From a virus, in the IMG/VR virus record IMGVR_UViG_3300018045_000011, positions 1-29,373 of that record: a stretch of 29,373 nt of DNA, one strand, 5' to 3'. This document shows positions 3,802 through 16,050 of the stretch, one piece after another; position 1 is the stretch's first letter; every line of letters starts with the position of its first letter. A program made the translations under genes and the position numbers. The notes beneath the pieces were generated by a model. That model had not been told where the DNA came from. It saw only the letters and a list, made by a program, of their open reading frames with translations, and did not search any database.

Positions 3802-4009
3802 AAAACGGAGCACAGAATGGGGGCTCTGGGCCACTTTCTTTATTGTGGCCTGCGCCCTAAATACTGTGGCCTTGTCAGTCCAAGAAATGAAGGACAAGGC
3901 TCCTACAATACATATCAACCAGCCGCCACCAACGGCACCACCCCAGCCAGTTGAAAAAGAAATTGCCAAGTCGGCCCTAGTTGTCTATAAAGAAGAGGAT
4001 GAAAATTAA
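3782..4009 (+). CDS. Small membrane protein with a proline-rich tail, spanin- or holin-like
   Basis: The 75-residue product has a basic N-terminus, one hydrophobic segment (WGLWATFFIVACALNTVALS, about residues 13-32), and then a proline-rich linker (INQPPPTAPPQP) before a charged end. An N-terminal anchor followed by a proline-rich periplasm-length tail is seen in spanins and other envelope-spanning proteins. Starts at 3782 or 3791 are both possible; the first is used. It overlaps the previous membrane gene, and its stop overlaps the methyltransferase ATG at 3999. Function is not established. Confidence 0.5.
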   Translation: MKKMESKKRSTEWGLWATFFIVACALNTVALSVQEMKDKAPTIHINQPPPTAPPQPVEKEIAKSALVVYKEEDEN

Positions 4010-5456
4010 ACCAAAGGGGTACCACAAGAACCCCCGCCAGATAACGGAGGAGCAGTTTGCCAAGCTCCGCCAGAACCTGCAAGAGCTCGGAGACATTTCG
4101 GGCATCGTGCACGACCTGAATACAAATGAGCTGATAGGAGGTAACCAGCGAAGCAAGGCGGTAAAATTGACCGAATGCGAAATTGAGTTGGTTAAGGAGT
4201 ATGCCAAACCGACTAGAACTGGAACAGTTGCCGAGGGCTATGTACTTTGGGAGGGCGAACGCTACAGTTACCGACAGGTAAGGTGGACCGCCGCCCAATG
4301 CGAGCAGGCCAATATTACCGCCAATAAGCTGGGCGGGGATTGGGATTTCGATATACTGGCCAATGAGTTCGAGTTTGACGACTTGATAGATTACGGCTTT
4401 AAGGACTTTGAGTTGGTCGGCTTTTTCGATGATGCCAAGCCTATTGATGGCATAGGCGGAGAAGGTATAGAGACCAAGCCTAAAGGCTCTTTGCTAGATC
4501 GCTTTGGCGTTCCTCCCTTCTCTGTATTAGACAGCCGTCAGGGCTATTGGCAGGACCGCAAGCGCTCTTGGCTGGCGCTTGGTATACAGAGCGAAGAGGG
4601 CCGCAAAGAAGACCTATCTATTACAGCCCTCACGCCCAGTATGTATGATGAGAAAGCCGCAGTAGAAAAGAAGCTGGGCCGTGATATTACTATTGCAGAG
4701 TACAAAGAAAAGTACTGCACCAAATCGGCCCTATCTAGCACCTCCGTTTTTGACCCAGTACTAACCGAACTATCCTACCGCTGGTTTATGCCCGCCAAGG
4801 GCGGCACTATCCTAGACCCTTTTGCTGGCGGATCAGTTCGCGGCATTGTGGCCGCTAAGCTTGGCTATCCCTATTGGGGGAACGACCTGCGAGAAGAGCA
4901 GGTAATGGCCAACCGTGAGCAGGCCGCCGATATACTGGAAGAAGGCGAACCGGTGCCGACTTGGACAGTTGGCCCCAGCCAGAACCTAGATACTATCTGG
5001 CCCGAAGATTTGCAGGCTGATTTGGTCTTTAGCTGCCCGCCCTATGCGGATTTAGAAGTATACAGCGATCTACAGGCTGATATATCCAATATGCCTTACA
5101 AGGAGTTTTTGGCCAATTACAAACAGATTATCGCCAAGGCCTGCGCCAAGCTAAAGCCAAACCGCTTTGCGGTCTTTGTGGTGGGCGAGGTTCGGGCCAA
5201 GGCTGGCGAATACTACAACTTTGTAGGCGATACTATTGCAGCTTTCCAAGAGGCTGGGCTTGCATACTACAACGAAATGATATTGATCAATACCGCCGCT
5301 TCCTTGGCTATTAGAGTGGCCCGCCCATTCAATAAGTCCCGAAAGGTTGGCAAGTGCCATCAAAACGTTCTAGTCTTCTATAAAGGGGACTTGAGCGCCA
5401 TTAAGGCCAACTTTGGCGAGCTTGATATATCAGAAGAAGAAAGCCCTCAAGCGTAA
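3999..5456 (+). CDS. ParB-like domain fused to a DNA adenine/cytosine-N4 methyltransferase
   Basis: The 485-residue protein has two parts. The first ~60 residues form a ParB/sulfiredoxin-like domain with NPRQITEEQFAKLRQNL and the loop GGNQRSKA. The C-terminal part is an amino-methyltransferase: SAM-binding motif I DPFAGGSVRG near residues 273-282 and catalytic SCPPY at 345-349. Motif I precedes motif IV, so the order is not that of beta-class enzymes. Phages use such enzymes to modify their DNA against host restriction; the ParB-like part may recognise the DNA. The ATG at 3999 overlaps the upstream stop and is chosen over an in-frame TTG at 3981; AAGAAGAGG lies just before it. No restriction gene is nearby, so it is an orphan modifier. 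It is the last gene of this plus-strand block and ends in a terminator hairpin. Confidence 0.8.
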   Translation: MKIKPKGYHKNPRQITEEQFAKLRQNLQELGDISGIVHDLNTNELIGGNQRSKAVKLTECEIELVKEYAKPTRTGTVAEGYVLWEGERYSYRQVRWTAAQCEQANITANKLGGDWDFDILANEFEFDDLIDYGFKDFELVGFFDDAKPIDGIGGEGIETKPKGSLLDRFGVPPFSVLDSRQGYWQDRKRSWLALGIQSEEGRKEDLSITALTPSMYDEKAAVEKKLGRDITIAEYKEKYCTKSALSSTSVFDPVLTELSYRWFMPAKGGTILDPFAGGSVRGIVAAKLGYPYWGNDLREEQVMANREQAADILEEGEPVPTWTVGPSQNLDTIWPEDLQADLVFSCPPYADLEVYSDLQADISNMPYKEFLANYKQIIAKACAKLKPNRFAVFVVGEVRAKAGEYYNFVGDTIAAFQEAGLAYYNEMILINTAASLAIRVARPFNKSRKVGKCHQNVLVFYKGDLSAIKANFGELDISEEESPQA

Positions 5457-5915: not shown

Positions 5916-6419
5916 ATGGATTTCTTCAAGAATTGTAAGACGGTAGCCGAGGCAAAGAGCGCATTTAGAAAACTAGCTAAGCGCTACCACCCTGACCTCA
6001 ACCCTTCCGAGGACACCACCGCTATTATGCAGGAGGTAAACAACCAGTTTCAGGCCTTTAAGCCCGCCGAGCTGGCCTTTGATAGTGAGGGTGAAAAGTT
6101 TGAGGCCAGCGCTGCGCAGTGGTCACAAATTGTGGTTGAGCTGCTAAAGCTAGAAGGGGTGGAATTTGAAGTTATTGGCTCTTGGATTTGGATAACTAAG
6201 AGCAGCAAAGAGCTGGCCCCTGCTATTAAGGCGATTAACTTTGAGGGCAAAAAGTTTGACCAGTACAAGCGGCCTCTCTGGCACGCCAAAAAGAAGTGTT
6301 GGTATATCAGCCCCAAAGGGTACCGCAAGTTCAGCGGCCAAGGGTATAGCCTAGACCAAGTACGGGAGCTATACGGCTCTAATAAATTCAAGGCCCCTAG
6401 CAAAAAGCGCCTAAAATAA
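5916..6419 (+). CDS. Phage J-domain (DnaJ-like) protein
   Basis: The 167-residue protein begins with a short J-domain: FRKLAKRYHPDLNP carries the HPD tripeptide at residues 25-27, which stimulates the ATPase of Hsp70/DnaK. After a linker, the second half has a compact aromatic region (GSWIWITKSSKELAPAIK and KKKCWYISPKGY), common in small J-domain proteins of Bacteroidota phages and plasmids. There is no zinc-finger region, so this is not a full DnaJ; it probably recruits host DnaK to a phage complex such as replication or assembly. It is the first gene of the rightward early region, with its own promoter and hairpin leader, and ends just before the next promoter. The target of the recruited chaperone is unknown. 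Confidence 0.8.
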   Translation: MDFFKNCKTVAEAKSAFRKLAKRYHPDLNPSEDTTAIMQEVNNQFQAFKPAELAFDSEGEKFEASAAQWSQIVVELLKLEGVEFEVIGSWIWITKSSKELAPAIKAINFEGKKFDQYKRPLWHAKKKCWYISPKGYRKFSGQGYSLDQVRELYGSNKFKAPSKKRLK

Positions 6420-7729: not shown

Positions 7730-8176
7730 ATGAAAAGAGAAGTTGAAATTAAAGACGCAGCGACAGTCTTTGTTAGTCCTGCGCCATCGAACCATCAGAT
7801 CATAGAGCAGGTCGAAGCTTGGCTTATTGAGAACTGCGAGGAAGAAATACAGTTGATTTATATGCGCTATACGGATTACGTTGAAAAGTGTGATGACTTA
7901 GAGGCCTTCTTGGCCGAGTCTAGAGTAGAACTCAACGGCCCAAGTCTAGTCGCTATGGATTACCAGGCAAAGTTCCAAGAGGCGATGGCAGTCCTTCGCC
8001 AAAAATTCAGCTACCTATGCAGTGCCAAGATTGGAGAGGACGACTGTATGACAGTTGTTCGATCTGCCCGCCCATTGGCACCTGACCAGTACTTTGATAT
8101 TGGCCCATCTACTTACTTTGTCCATCGGGCGGAGGGCACCCCATTTATGCCGCCAATAGATGCAATGCTAAGATGA
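7730..8176 (+). CDS. Unknown early protein upstream of the sigma-like gene
   Basis: The 148-residue, moderately acidic protein has no membrane segment or recognisable motif. Visible features are a helical central part (VEAWLIENCEEEIQLIYMRY) and a C-terminal part with HRAEGTPFMPPIDAML. The start at 7730 is chosen because CACAACACAACAAAT lies directly before ATG; an in-frame start at 7706 lies in the hairpin. Its stop overlaps the start of the sigma-factor-like gene (ATGA), so the two products are probably made in fixed proportion. A role in regulating the sigma-like protein is possible by context only. Confidence 0.65.
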   Translation: MKREVEIKDAATVFVSPAPSNHQIIEQVEAWLIENCEEEIQLIYMRYTDYVEKCDDLEAFLAESRVELNGPSLVAMDYQAKFQEAMAVLRQKFSYLCSAKIGEDDCMTVVRSARPLAPDQYFDIGPSTYFVHRAEGTPFMPPIDAMLR

Positions 8177-9042
8177 GCCATATAGAAAACTGGCTCCGCC
8201 GACAAGGCCGCATTTGGAAGCAGTCCGAAACCCAAGCGGATATGCTTCCTGTTGTGGCCAAATGGCAGGCTGCCAAGACGGACGAAGAGCGCAGCGAGGC
8301 CCAAACCGAGCTACTGGCCCGCAACGTCGGGTTCTTCTTGGGGGCCCTGCGAAGGCTTGAGGAGCATAGCGCTATACTCAACCTGCACGGCTCTATAGAA
8401 GATGCCTACAGCGAGGCGCTGTTTGAACTGACCCTTGCCCTTCGTATCTACGACCAGAAGAAGCATAAGGCCAATTTTGGCACCTTCTGGTTTTACAGGG
8501 TGAGATGGCGACTACTCAACCCCTACCATATGGGGGTTATGCGGCCAGCTCGGCGCTCCAACTTCTCCGTTGCCGTCCGTACGGTAAAGCAGATAATGGA
8601 GCAGCAACTACAGGCCGATGAATATGCGGACGAAATAGCCGCATGGGATGAAGCCTTTAAGCTAGACCCCCGTCACTTGGAGCGAATGGGCGTTAAGCGC
8701 TTTCCCAAGCAACAGCGAGCTGCAATGGCCCGCCGCTTCGCCCAGCTGGTAGAAATACCAGTAAGCGCAAACCAACCACAGTATGAAGACGGCTCCAGCT
8801 TAGCCGATGGCTGGGCCCAAGACTACACGCCCAAGCCAAACCCCAGCATCAAGCTTGACCGCATAGCTGGGCGGCTCTCTGGCAGAGATAAACAAATATT
8901 CATTGGTCTACCAAAGGGCCGGACCCCCGCCGCCATTGGTGATGATTTGGGGGTAAGTGGTGAAGCTATCCGCCTTTGGTGGCGGGATAAAACTTTGCCG
9001 CTTTGCAAAAAAATAGCTGGACAATTAGGATATATGGATTAG
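8173..9042 (+). CDS. Divergent sigma-70-like RNA polymerase sigma factor
   Basis: The 289-residue protein has the layout of a primary-type sigma factor. Residues ~47-125 resemble region 2: LLARNVGFFLGALRRLEE, then SIEDAYSEALFELTLALRIYD (the position of the conserved DLxQEG...LxxAxxxFD helix) and FGTFWFYRVRWRLLNPY (the FxTYAxxxIRxxI helix that contacts the -10 element). The last ~60 residues resemble region 4: LSGRDKQIFIGLPKGRTPAAIG then a helix-turn-helix GDDLGVSGEAIRLWW. The middle is longer and unlike standard region 3. Such proteins direct host core polymerase to phage promoters; here the likely target is the late genes, which lack early-type promoters. Start ATG overlaps the upstream stop. 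A strong terminator follows. Sequence is divergent, so DNA-binding without core binding is an alternative. Confidence 0.65.
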   Translation: MSHIENWLRRQGRIWKQSETQADMLPVVAKWQAAKTDEERSEAQTELLARNVGFFLGALRRLEEHSAILNLHGSIEDAYSEALFELTLALRIYDQKKHKANFGTFWFYRVRWRLLNPYHMGVMRPARRSNFSVAVRTVKQIMEQQLQADEYADEIAAWDEAFKLDPRHLERMGVKRFPKQQRAAMARRFAQLVEIPVSANQPQYEDGSSLADGWAQDYTPKPNPSIKLDRIAGRLSGRDKQIFIGLPKGRTPAAIGDDLGVSGEAIRLWWRDKTLPLCKKIAGQLGYMD

Positions 9043-9987: not shown

Positions 9988-10827
9988 ATGAACCTATATG
10001 ATGTCCGCACCCATAGCGGAGCTTTCCATTCTGACGAAATTAGCGCATTAGCCTGTGCAATTGAATTCTGGAACTTGGACCCAGATGATATTAGCAGAGT
10101 GCGTGAGGCCTCAGTTGACGACCTCAGCAATCCTAATATTGTATTTATTGATATTGGGGGTAACTACTCAGTTGAGCATGGCAACTTTGACCATCACCAC
10201 GATGATCAATTAGAAGCCAGTAACCTACTTCTTTTTGACTGGTTGTTAGTTGACCATTTGTACACCGAGAACCGCCCCCAAGAAGAGGCCGAAGCTCTTA
10301 TAGCCGTCCGCAACCGTGTACTACTGCCATTGAGTGAGTGCGACAAGCACGGCACTACTCAGTTGATGGAGCAGGCTAAAGACCTACCAGAGCGCCAACG
10401 CATGCTAGGTCTTGTAGAAATCATCCGAGCCCTTAACTGGGAGGACGATAAAGACACTGCTTTCTGGAAGGCCATTGACCTTATGCGCATTATTGTGCGT
10501 GCGGTTTATAACCAAGCCCTCGCCCAGGCAAAGGGCGAGAAGCAATGGGCCGAGCTGGTAGAGAAAAAGGGGCGCTATGCTATCCAGCTTGAGGGCGGCC
10601 CCATTGCAGGCTGGCAGCAACTAGCAAAAAGAGATGGCGTACACTACCTAGTATCTACAAGCAAAAGAAACCCAGGGCGCTATGTTTTGATCTCTCGTGA
10701 CAGCAAGGCTTACCCAATTAGCCTCACAGGGGAGGAAACTTGGAACCATAATTCTCTGTTCTATGCAGAGTACCCCACCCAAGAGCTGGCCGAACAAGCG
10801 GCTGTAATGAGCATCTTGAAAGCATAA
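9988..10827 (+). CDS. MYG1-family (UPF0160) metal-dependent hydrolase/nuclease
   Basis: The 279-residue protein matches MYG1, a DHH-superfamily member described as a metal-dependent 3'-5' exonuclease acting on RNA in eukaryotes. Seen here: THSGAFHSDEISALA at residues 8-22 (the THxGxFHxDE metal motif), VFIDIGGNYSVEHG around 52-65 (the DxGxxY motif), and FDHHHDDQ near residues 69-76 (DHH motif). Length is somewhat short of cellular MYG1 (~330-380). It sits among early genes after a stable hairpin and the ACAACAAATATT signal. A phage could use it to degrade or mature RNA or to cleave nucleotides; the substrate cannot be read from sequence. Its catalytic motifs are complete, so it is probably active. 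Confidence 0.8.
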   Translation: MNLYDVRTHSGAFHSDEISALACAIEFWNLDPDDISRVREASVDDLSNPNIVFIDIGGNYSVEHGNFDHHHDDQLEASNLLLFDWLLVDHLYTENRPQEEAEALIAVRNRVLLPLSECDKHGTTQLMEQAKDLPERQRMLGLVEIIRALNWEDDKDTAFWKAIDLMRIIVRAVYNQALAQAKGEKQWAELVEKKGRYAIQLEGGPIAGWQQLAKRDGVHYLVSTSKRNPGRYVLISRDSKAYPISLTGEETWNHNSLFYAEYPTQELAEQAAVMSILKA

Positions 10828-11139: not shown

Positions 11140-11290
11140 TTGGGTAGATTAAAATCCGTTCCGTATATTTACGAAGGCTAAGGGAGTGATGGCCCAAAGC
11201 TTTACTCTCTTAGCTATGTTCTATTTAGCTTGGCCCTTTTACGCAGCCATCACCTGCGTCTTAGGGCCTTCTTGTTTTAATCTTCAACCT
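11140..11290 (+). promoter_or_regulatory. Replication promoter and structured leader with complementary hairpin loops
   Basis: TTGG (11140-11143) and TATATTTA (11164-11171), 20 nt apart, fit the host promoter; TTTACGAAG here overlaps the -7 element. The transcribed leader folds into two hairpins: GCTAAGGGAGT (11177-11187) with ACTCTCTTAGC (11204-11214), one G-U pair; and GGCCC/GGGCC (11232-11236, 11264-11268) enclosing ACGCAG/CTGCGT (11241-11246, 11254-11259). The second loop CCATCAC (11247-11253) is complementary to GTGATGG (11186-11192), mostly in the first loop, so a kissing or pseudoknot contact is possible. TTCTTGTTTT follows, which suggests an attenuator before ATG 11291. Confidence 0.65.
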
Positions 11291-12082
11291 ATGGACAATA
11301 GTTTTATCTTAATACCAGCCGAGATTTTGGCCAATAAAGAGCTCAGCCACTTGGCCAAGCTGCTTTTTGGCAAAGTGTTAAGCGGGGCCCAAAAAGAGGG
11401 CTACAACTGGGCCACAAACAAGTACCTAGCTAGTTGCTTAGGCGTGACGGCGGGCACCATCTCTAAGGCTCTAGGAAAGCTAGAGGCCGCTGGTCTACTG
11501 CGAATAGAGATCCAAATGGACGGCAGCGGAACCCACCGAAAGCTTTACCCTATAGGGGTAGCCAAAAAAGCGCAGGGGGGTAGTCGAAAACAACTAGGGG
11601 GGGTAGTCGAAAATGACTACCCAAAAGAAGAGATAATAATAAGAGATAATAAAGAAGAGGCGCAAGCGCCTAGCGGCCCCGAGGGCCTTGAGTACTACCA
11701 AGCCACTATGGAGGTGGCCGAGTACTTTTCTTCTATCCTAGACGCAAGCTTCCGTATGCCGAAGACAAAAACGGCATTTCGTAAATACGGCCTTTACAAA
11801 GCCGTTAGGCGGATTTTGGAGGCTGGCTTTCAACTAGAGGAGGTCCCCAAGGTCCTAAAGTTCAAAAAATGGGAGTGGGGCCAAGATGATAAAATGAGTA
11901 AATTCTTAACATACCAAACGCTTCTCATTCCAGAGAAATTTGAGAAGTATCTTCAACAACGCACTAATGAAACAAAACGAATCAAAAAAAACCAAGGCCC
12001 TAGTAACGGCCAACCAAAACAACGCCTTGGCGATAAGTACGCCCAAAGAGCTGCAAAGCGCCTCGGCAAAATCGGGAATTAA
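11291..12082 (+). CDS. Replication initiator-like protein (winged helix plus phage replication C-terminal domain)
   Basis: The 263-residue product has a winged helix-turn-helix N-terminus (SFILIPAEILANKELS, then YLASCLGVTAGTISKALGKLEAAGLL), a low-complexity linker (about residues 88-132), and a C-terminal domain like Phg_2220_C, with RRILEAGFQLEEVPKVLKFK, W and FLTYQTLLIPEKFEKYL in order (about residues 137-225). This is the layout of initiators that bind origin repeats and load host replication proteins. The start at 11291 is chosen because the in-frame upstream extension (from 11186) is hydrophobic, spans the hairpin leader and is unlike this family. The linker DNA carries repeats in different frames, a probable origin. 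It overlaps the next gene by 116 nt if that starts at 11967. Confidence 0.8.
   Translation: MDNSFILIPAEILANKELSHLAKLLFGKVLSGAQKEGYNWATNKYLASCLGVTAGTISKALGKLEAAGLLRIEIQMDGSGTHRKLYPIGVAKKAQGGSRKQLGGVVENDYPKEEIIIRDNKEEAQAPSGPEGLEYYQATMEVAEYFSSILDASFRMPKTKTAFRKYGLYKAVRRILEAGFQLEEVPKVLKFKKWEWGQDDKMSKFLTYQTLLIPEKFEKYLQQRTNETKRIKKNQGPSNGQPKQRLGDKYAQRAAKRLGKIGN
11555..11687. other. Probable phage replication origin inside the initiator gene
   Basis: Three related repeats lie in a row: GGGGTAGCCAAAA (11555-11567, degenerate), GGGGGGTAGTCGAAAA (11575-11590) and GGGGGGTAGTCGAAAA (11598-11613), spaced 22-23 bp. Then comes GACTACCC (11615-11622), complementary to the repeat core, followed by an AT-rich tract with two tandem 13-mers, AAGAGATAATAAT (11628-11640) and AAGAGATAATAAA (11641-11653). 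Two GC hairpins follow, GGCGC-AA-GCGCC (11659-11670) and GGCCC-CGA-GGGCC (11675-11687). Repeat spacings are not multiples of three, so the copies are read in different frames: the DNA, not the protein, is conserved. The layout resembles lambda's origin within gene O. Confidence 0.65.
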
Positions 12083-12974
12083 GCTTAACCAACTAGCCGT
12101 TGTGGCGCATCAAACAGGCAACCCCCAGATGGATATGCCAGTACGCCAGATGGCCCAAGCGGAGCTGATTGTGGCCGCTACAAAGCTTGAGGCTTTCATT
12201 GAGCTGTACTTAGGGATAGATATTTCCCAGCAGGACAACGGAGAGGATCTCTTTGTAGCCCTGCAAACCCTTCTTGCTGAGCAGTCCCCCCAGCTAAGCG
12301 TGGGCGAAGTAGAGCAGGCCTTTAAGCTCTGCATGGCTGGCAAGCTAGATACTAAGCTAGTGGCTTACTACAACCGTGTAACGGTCCAGATGCTGGGCGA
12401 CTTATTCGCCAGCTACCTCAGATGGCGCAAGGCCGCTAAGCGGGCCTTAGCCGATGCCGCCAAGGAAACCGCAGAAGCGCAGCGCATTGCAGCTATGCAG
12501 GAACTACAGCCTGAGTTGCACAGCTCTTGGATTGAGCAGATTCAAGACTGGGTATTGGATGCGGAGGCTGGCAAGGTCGTTTGCTCTAGCTGGGAGTATA
12601 TTCCCCATAAGCCTGTGGAGGTATTTGCTAAGACCTTCCCTAACCTGTGGAAGGTAGAAACCAAAAAGGCCTTGTGGGAAAAGGCCAAGCAATTGGCCAA
12701 GGGGCGCAAGAAGGCGGACGAGGAAGAGCGCAGCGCCAAGATGGGCGGCAGCGCCGCCGCTTTGGCAAAAGCGCTTAAGCGTATAGAGCAGGATACCAAA
12801 GGGGCGGAAGCTCTGGCTAAGGCCTATTATAGTAAGCTCCTAATTTGGGAGTTAATTAAAGGCCCTGCTTTGGCGAAGCAGGAGGAAGAGCGGCAAGAGA
12901 GACTGGCCGCCATTAACAAAATGAAGGCCGAGTTAGAGGCCGCAAAAGATAGGGGCAATGAAAAAGCACACTAA
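11967..12974 (+). CDS. Replication-associated protein, unknown fold
   Basis: The 335-residue product is helical and has no Walker motif. The segment TLLAEQSPQLSVGEVEQAFKLCMAGKLDTKLVAYYNRVTVQMLGDLFASY (split: about residues 90-140) resembles proteins that follow DnaD-like initiators in Bacteroidota phages. The C-terminal half is long and coiled-coil-like, rich in Lys, Glu and Ala (SSWEYIPHKPVEVFAK, then KKADEEERSAK). A helicase-loading or primosome role would fit but is not shown. The first good ATG is 11967 (MKQNESKKTKAL); an alternative is 11940. The long overlap with the initiator is unusual, and the next gene overlaps its end by 17 nt. Confidence 0.6.
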   Translation: MKQNESKKTKALVTANQNNALAISTPKELQSASAKSGIKLNQLAVVAHQTGNPQMDMPVRQMAQAELIVAATKLEAFIELYLGIDISQQDNGEDLFVALQTLLAEQSPQLSVGEVEQAFKLCMAGKLDTKLVAYYNRVTVQMLGDLFASYLRWRKAAKRALADAAKETAEAQRIAAMQELQPELHSSWIEQIQDWVLDAEAGKVVCSSWEYIPHKPVEVFAKTFPNLWKVETKKALWEKAKQLAKGRKKADEEERSAKMGGSAAALAKALKRIEQDTKGAEALAKAYYSKLLIWELIKGPALAKQEEERQERLAAINKMKAELEAAKDRGNEKAH

Positions 12975-15807: not shown

Positions 15808-16050
15808 TTATTCCAGCTCGTCACTTACGAGCTCGGTATCTTTAACCCTAACCTCCCACTCTATCGCCCCGCTGCTGACCTTCTGACGAGGTCTTGGGGC
15901 TTTGGGTTGGGGTAGTGGCTGGGCTTCCTTTTTGGGCTCCTCTGGCTTTTGCTGGGGGGGCTTTTGTTGTGCCTTCCGCAAGGCGGCCAGCTCTGCGCTT
16001 AGGGCAAAGATGACCGCCATTTGGATAAAGGCAATGATGGCTAGTAACAT
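15808..16050 (-). CDS. Small membrane protein with a proline-rich tail
   Basis: Starting at 16050, 4 nt after the stop of the upstream gene, it encodes 80 residues: an N-terminal hydrophobic helix (MLLAIIAFIQMAVIFALSAEL), a short coiled part, and then a long Pro/Lys/Glu/Gln stretch. An in-frame start at 16110 would overlap the upstream gene and is not preferred. The pair with the larger membrane protein suggests a small partner subunit. A spanin-like architecture is possible, but nothing else supports lysis. Confidence 0.6.
   Translation of the reverse strand: MLLAIIAFIQMAVIFALSAELAALRKAQQKPPQQKPEEPKKEAQPLPQPKAPRPRQKVSSGAIEWEVRVKDTELVSDELE

Follow-up and report, generated by a model that had tools for sequence, protein, structure and literature searches.

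A probable lambda-style replication origin within the gene of a DnaD-type initiator in a metagenomic phage

The virus record and its initiator gene

The window, that is, the whole stretch of 29,373 bases that was analysed, is the complete IMG/VR record of a tailed phage; it is linear and without terminal repeats, and it breaks off within a tape-measure-like gene, so that the record may be incomplete. Genes for a portal protein, a terminase, an Erf annealing protein and a DNA methyltransferase are present; among named phages, the closest terminases are those of Bacteroides phages, at approximately 38% identity. A second IMG/VR contig, L002 (3300019864_000018, 21.4 kb), carries at positions 961-2157 a terminase that is 100% identical to that of the window at the protein level, and it may represent another part of the same virus or of a very close virus; it contains no initiator match, with the consequence that an allele comparison of the initiator was impossible. 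A search through the whole records of 38 terminase-related viruses yielded just one initiator relative, which indicates that terminase and replication module are not inherited together. No phage helicase or helicase loader gene was recognised among the window genes that were scanned.

Several other genes of the window were noted. The single open reading frame at 3981-5456 (plus strand) combines an N-terminal ParB-like partition/nuclease domain (phrog_620, 6.5e-17) with a C-terminal part that is a DNA methyltransferase (phrog_498, 7e-104); the small protein encoded at 5916-6419 (plus strand) has a DnaJ-like N-terminus (5.1e-6, slightly below the Pfam cut-off) and also matches phrog_15863, a phage family of unknown function (1.8e-33). 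The 289-aa protein encoded at 8173-9042 (plus strand) has no family match; by eye, it resembles a small sigma factor, with a helical N-terminal half and a helix-turn-helix near the C-terminus. Upstream of the initiator gene, the product of 9988-10827 (plus strand) matches the MYG1 exonuclease family with its N-terminus (7e-9, aa 6-73), and the gene that comes after the initiator (11970-12974) matches phrog_26016, a family of unknown function (2e-8).

The initiator protein matches phrog_428, annotated as "replication initiation protein", with an E-value of 1.2e-22 over aa 2-234, and its HTH_36 and Phg_2220_C matches (Table 1) both exceed the Pfam cut-offs; O-like families were matched weakly (phrog_678, 2.7e-5; phrog_391, 1.3e-4), and a RepA_N domain was not found in the Pfam scan of the initiator. 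The start codon, ATG at 11291, agrees with those of relatives; an in-frame GTG upstream, at 11186, is possible. When the profile of the initiator family was compared with solved structures, the best match was the DnaD N-terminal domain (2vn2, 2v79). The AlphaFold model of the initiator, based on a 19-sequence alignment, has a mean pLDDT of 79; the winged helix reaches about 90-97, the helical C-terminal part is confident, and the two are joined by a linker of predicted disorder. In Foldseek comparisons, the N-terminal domain resembled the DnaD N-terminal domain and the plasmid Rep initiators 4pql, 4pt7 and 5kbj, with no PDB match at E < 0.001; MarR-type repressors were also among the fold matches of the winged helix. 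By analogy with DnaD-like initiators, Phg_2220_C is presumed to recruit the replisome.

Table 1. Features of the initiator gene and of the candidate origin embedded in it (window positions).
Feature	Position	Strand	Basis
Initiator (Rep) gene, 263 aa	11291-12082	+	Translation; HTH_36, Phg_2220_C and phrog_428 matches
HTH_36 winged helix-turn-helix, aa 17-70, presumed iteron-binding	11339-11500	+	Pfam, 2.8e-8
Inverted half-core TACCC-tatag-GGGTA, adjoining iteron 1	11546-11560		Inverted-repeat analysis
Iteron 1, GGGGTAGCCAAAAAAGCGCAGG, weakest copy	11555-11576	+	GGGGTAG core
Predicted disordered linker, aa 93-125	11567-11665	+	AlphaFold pLDDT below 50
Iteron 2, GGGGTAGTCGAAAACAACTAGGG, codon phase 1	11577-11599	+	GGGGTAG core
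Iteron 3, with perfect inverted repeat	11600-11622	+	GGGGTAG core; folding z = -6.1
AT-rich presumed unwinding element, AAAAGAAGAGATAATAATAAGAGATAATAAAGAAG	11623-11657		Sequence composition; same position in relatives
13-mer copy 1, AAGAAGAGATAAT	11625-11637	+	Repeat comparison
13-mer copy 2, AATAAGAGATAAT	11638-11650	+	Repeat comparison
GC inverted repeat AGGCGC-AA-GCGCCT, directly after the AT-rich tract	11658-11671		Folding
Second GC hairpin, GGCCC-CGA-GGGCC	11675-11687		Folding
Phg_2220_C domain, aa 159-222, presumed replisome-recruiting	11765-11956	+	Pfam, 4e-9

Repeats, AT-rich tract and hairpins in the linker-coding DNA

Three repeats with the core GGGGTAG begin at 11555, 11577 and 11600, at spacings of 22 and 23 bp, as an earlier note on this DNA had described; elsewhere on the plus strand of the 29.4-kb window, this core has a single further copy, at 15909. 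The three iterons correspond to aa 89-111, and the entire region of array, tract and hairpins (11555-11687) corresponds to aa 89-133, in agreement with the earlier placement between the winged helix and the Phg_2220_C domain. Counted from the start at 11291, the cores stand in codon phases 0, 1 and 0 and are translated as GVAKK, GGSRK and GGVVEN; the same repeat is indeed read in different frames. These mixed phases, together with a comparison against recoded genes, bear out the claim that conservation acts at the DNA level. The lag score of the initiator gene at 20-26 bp amounts to 22 of 28 matches, and none of 5000 synonymous recodings that preserved the protein and its codon usage reached this value (maximum 21); for the three-copy statistic, 4 of 1000 recodings drawn from the phage-wide codon pool, and none of 300 codon shuffles, did as well as the gene itself.

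Iteron 3 contains a perfect 8-bp inverted repeat (GGGTAGTC-gaaaat-GACTACCC, 11601-11622) that folds better than all 200 of 200 shuffles (z = -6.1). The inverted copy of the core that had been listed as an element of its own exists (CTACCC, a 6/7 match, at 11617-11622), but it is an arm of this palindrome and not a separate element; an inverted half-core, TACCC at 11546-11550, had been overlooked.

The AT-rich tract that follows the array contains TAATAATA, as do its counterparts in relatives, though in another codon phase. The tandem 13-mers within this tract are real, with 12 of 13 positions identical between the two copies; since their length of 13 is not divisible by three, the copies are read in different frames. 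Three TAAT motifs lie within 11634-11650; they might point to a DnaD recognition element (TnnT) or to DnaA-trios of the bacterial kind, an idea to be read against the fact that such motifs are expected in any AT-rich DNA. No exact DnaA box (TTWTNCACA) occurs in the whole window, which sets the locus apart from DnaA-dependent iteron plasmid origins. The two GC hairpins are present where the earlier note had seen them, but individually they are unremarkable, since 15 of 200 shuffles fold equally well. Two further candidates were rejected: an intrinsic terminator at 11658-11671, the sole terminator-like call, lies on the minus strand and has a poor T tract, and a promoter inside the array corresponds to a weak match (11613-11640) of the kind that occurs at chance frequency.

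Layout of the linker-coding DNA in related initiator genes

Protein comparisons with phage records, viral contigs and bacterial genomes yielded a collection of initiator genes, which was reduced to 42 non-redundant genes of less than 60% identity (mostly 20-30% identical). These relatives belong to unclassified viruses and to phages of Bacillota, Pseudomonadota and Fusobacteriota, including phages of Lactobacillus, Lactococcus, Staphylococcus, Butyrivibrio, Lysinibacillus, Acetoanaerobium, Fusobacterium, Pseudomonas, Oceanospirillum and Acinetobacter. Most of the 42 genes share one order of parts, in which iterons every 21-24 bp are followed by a TAATAATA-rich tract and then, often, by a GC hairpin. 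The core of the iterons is GGG(G)T; in each iteron, short inverted arms with an A-rich centre stand beside consecutive Gs (or Cs, on the other strand), and the sequences of the arms vary from phage to phage. The tract DNA is GATAATAATACA-like, and GTCGGGCAAGCCCGAC is an example of the GC hairpin.

Measured against synonymous recodings that use each gene's own codons, the 20-26-bp repeat score has p <= 0.05 in 30 of the 42 relatives and p <= 0.01 in 19, with a combined p of about 1e-30, and nearly all arrays lie directly after the winged helix; the 12 relatives that fall short of p = 0.05 do so partly because AT-rich codon usage lifts the null. Among 60 other genes of the same loci, examined as controls, none reached p <= 0.05. 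GGGT-type cores average 2.5 per linker vs. 0.8 expected from recodings; all three codon phases are used, and more than one phase occurs within 24 of the 42 genes. The iteron region is likewise enriched in inverted repeats (83 observed vs. 34 expected); the AT-rich tract has a mean AT content of 84%, compared to 65% for the genes, and in 13 of 37 family members, where 1.0 would be expected, a hairpin with a stem of 6 bp or longer comes after it. The TAATAATA motif stands in codon phase 0 in 34 loci and in phase 2 in the window, and therefore the DNA motif is held in common and the peptide is not.

The comparison of linkers among relatives, which the earlier note had proposed as a check, supports the same view: in relatives whose linker peptides are unrelated, iterons of the same period, the AT-rich tract and often the hairpin recur in varying codon phases. 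Searches with peptide patterns in viral contigs and genome contigs found no relatives close enough for linkers to be aligned base by base, and a search with the exact double-iteron DNA pattern found no relative with these iterons; the architecture is thus conserved, and not the exact sequence. The observation that nucleotide identity exceeds amino-acid identity in the linker (326 of 326 pairs) was dropped as evidence, since the excess is small in comparison to recoded controls; pairwise nucleotide identity in the linker is 0.654 vs. a synonymous expectation of 0.633, an excess of 0.021 compared to 0.007 in the winged helix.

Among the phages with phrog_428 and HTH_36 matches, Staphylococcus phage 77, Lactobacillus phage phiPYB5 and Butyrivibrio phage Ceridwen have the same initiator domains as the window, and linkers with GGGGT-type iterons of 22-24 bp, a TAATAATA tract and, frequently, a GC hairpin; the iteron palindromes differ by phage, and the window differs from these phages in the codon phase of the AT motif. 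In several relatives, a gene annotated as DnaC-like or DnaB-like lies beside rep, whereas none was recognised in the window. Other iteron types were also seen. The linkers of L098, L112, L113 and L116 contain 22-bp repeats in which a GGCAGACTT-type core replaces GGGGT or stands beside it, an apparent change of iteron class inside the family; in L168, L158 and L222, long palindromes without a G-tract (GTGAACAAAGTTCAC, CGATGTGAACGAGGTTCACATCG and CTGAAAGAGGTTCAG) take the place of the GGGGT iterons.

Comparison with known origins and proposed function

The earlier note did not recognise this combination of elements; it is the known kind of origin represented by phage lambda, phage TP901-1 and plasmid pSK41. 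The annotated lambda iterons (39034-39118, in gene O) are inverted repeats of the ATCCCTCAAAACGAGGGA type around an A-tract, at spacings of 20, 24 and 23 bp and in codon phases 0, 2, 2 and 1; their repeat score of 21 was reached by 2 of 1000 recodings, and by this measure the window equals or surpasses the positive control in strength. An AT-rich tract follows the lambda iterons, and then an inverted repeat whose stem is 10 bp long; the parallel to lambda that had been drawn for the window therefore holds for the mid-gene iterons, the mixed phases, the AT-rich tract and the inverted repeat, all in the same order. In lambda, O dimers bind the iterons and open the adjoining AT-rich region of 40 bp (PMC5043065, PMC7466680). 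The two loci differ in iteron sequence, and in the P gene that lies directly downstream in lambda, whereas no loader was recognised in the window.

The initiators ORF13 of TP901-1 and Rep2009 of Tuc2009 bind direct repeats within their own genes, and these repeats are reported to serve as ori (PMC8965321). The TP901-1 rep has an HTH_36 match barely below the Pfam cut-off and, as in the window, an AT-rich stretch after its repeats; in contrast to the window initiator with its Phg_2220_C domain, its C-terminal domain is DnaB_2, and the TP901-1 repeats are without a GGGGT core and unremarkable in the 10-26-bp lag test, which leaves lambda as the sole positive control. The pSK41 Rep has DnaD-like N- and C-terminal domains, of which the N-terminal domain binds the Rep boxes in the middle of the rep gene, and the pSK41 ori lies in the central region of rep that encodes a dispensable linker (PMC5703833). 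This plasmid initiator (RepA_N) was not detected as a sequence relative of the window initiator; the likeness between the two lies in the N-terminal fold.

The region 11555-11687 is very probably the vegetative replication origin of this phage, embedded in the gene of its DnaD-type initiator in the manner of lambda. The same repeats could in principle form an operator, through which the initiator would repress its own operon or regulate transcription while the origin lies elsewhere; initiators often autoregulate, the winged-helix fold also matches MarR-type repressors, and the weak promoter-like match at 11613-11640 extends over the array, though at chance frequency. This explanation is nevertheless very unlikely: the array begins 264 nt into the initiator coding sequence, away from its 5' end, and relatives maintain its position after the winged helix; the AT-rich tract and the hairpin lie on the same side of the array; and for repeats placed in this way in phage proteins of a related type, published work describes origin function (PMC8965321).

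Alternatively, the linker might be a low-complexity, fast-evolving spacer whose repeats, products of slippage or duplication, lack any function as DNA, as its predicted disorder and the low peptide identity (mean 0.33 between genes that are 55-85% alike in the winged helix) would allow; this is highly improbable in light of the repeats not being produced by synonymous recoding (0 of 5000), of the control genes without signal (0 of 60), and of the 21-24-bp period, the GGGT core and the inverted repeats that recur over unrelated linkers in different codon phases. GC skew, which the earlier note had proposed as a check, provides no support for an origin: cumulative skew rises across the whole record without a switch at 11.6 kb, a result that says little in the case of a virus record of 29 kb that may be incomplete. 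The failure of skew to locate an origin, and a record that has no terminal repeats, ends in a tape-measure-like gene and is maybe incomplete, would also accommodate a secondary or incompatibility site, involved for example in copy control or handcuffing, with the main replication start elsewhere in the record or in its missing part; since the AT-rich tract and the hairpin come directly after the array, as in the mapped origin of lambda, there is very little probability that the repeats are such a site.

If the region is the replication origin, the winged helix of the initiator would bind the palindromic iterons (11555-11622), and their spacing of approximately two helical turns would align the protein units on one face of the DNA. 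The complex of initiator and iterons could then strain and open the AT-rich tract (11623-11657), and the C-terminal domain, possibly together with protein on the exposed strand, would recruit the host helicase; a host helicase is proposed here, as the scanned window genes included none that could be recognised as encoding a phage helicase or loader. A boundary of the bubble or a loading signal is a possible role for the GC hairpin that follows the tract, and the linker peptide would be a disordered spacer that tolerates whatever the origin DNA encodes.

A wider reading of the family comparison is tentative, and on balance rather doubtful: phages from several bacterial phyla might share one old origin blueprint in the linkers of their DnaD-like initiators, composed of iterons with GGGGT and a palindrome at intervals of 21-24 bp, a tract of TAATAATA trinucleotides and then a GC hairpin. 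Iteron specificity might, just as tentatively, change fast while the G-core, the AT motif and the hairpin persist; and the AT motif and hairpin could conceivably be signals for single-strand recognition and helicase loading, comparable to the DnaD element of the Bacillus oriC, where pairs of TnnT on a single strand are recognised by DnaD once the origin has opened (PMC10201434). A literature search found no paper on the family-wide layout; its coverage of subscription journals was poor, and as evidence of novelty this result is weak.

As a single locus, the finding is an ordinary one, because this kind of origin has long been known from lambda, TP901-1/Tuc2009 and pSK41; the three-part, family-wide layout in dozens of distantly related phages may merit description. 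For an otherwise uncharacterised virus that is represented only by metagenomic data, a probable replication start has been located. The results also suggest that, in a large family of phage initiators, origins can be found from sequence alone, in the DNA that encodes the linker after HTH_36. The GGGGT core, the TAATAATA tract and the hairpin that follows the tract constitute testable elements for DNA opening and helicase loading by DnaD-like initiators, and they bear on the question of how the specificities of initiator and iteron change jointly.
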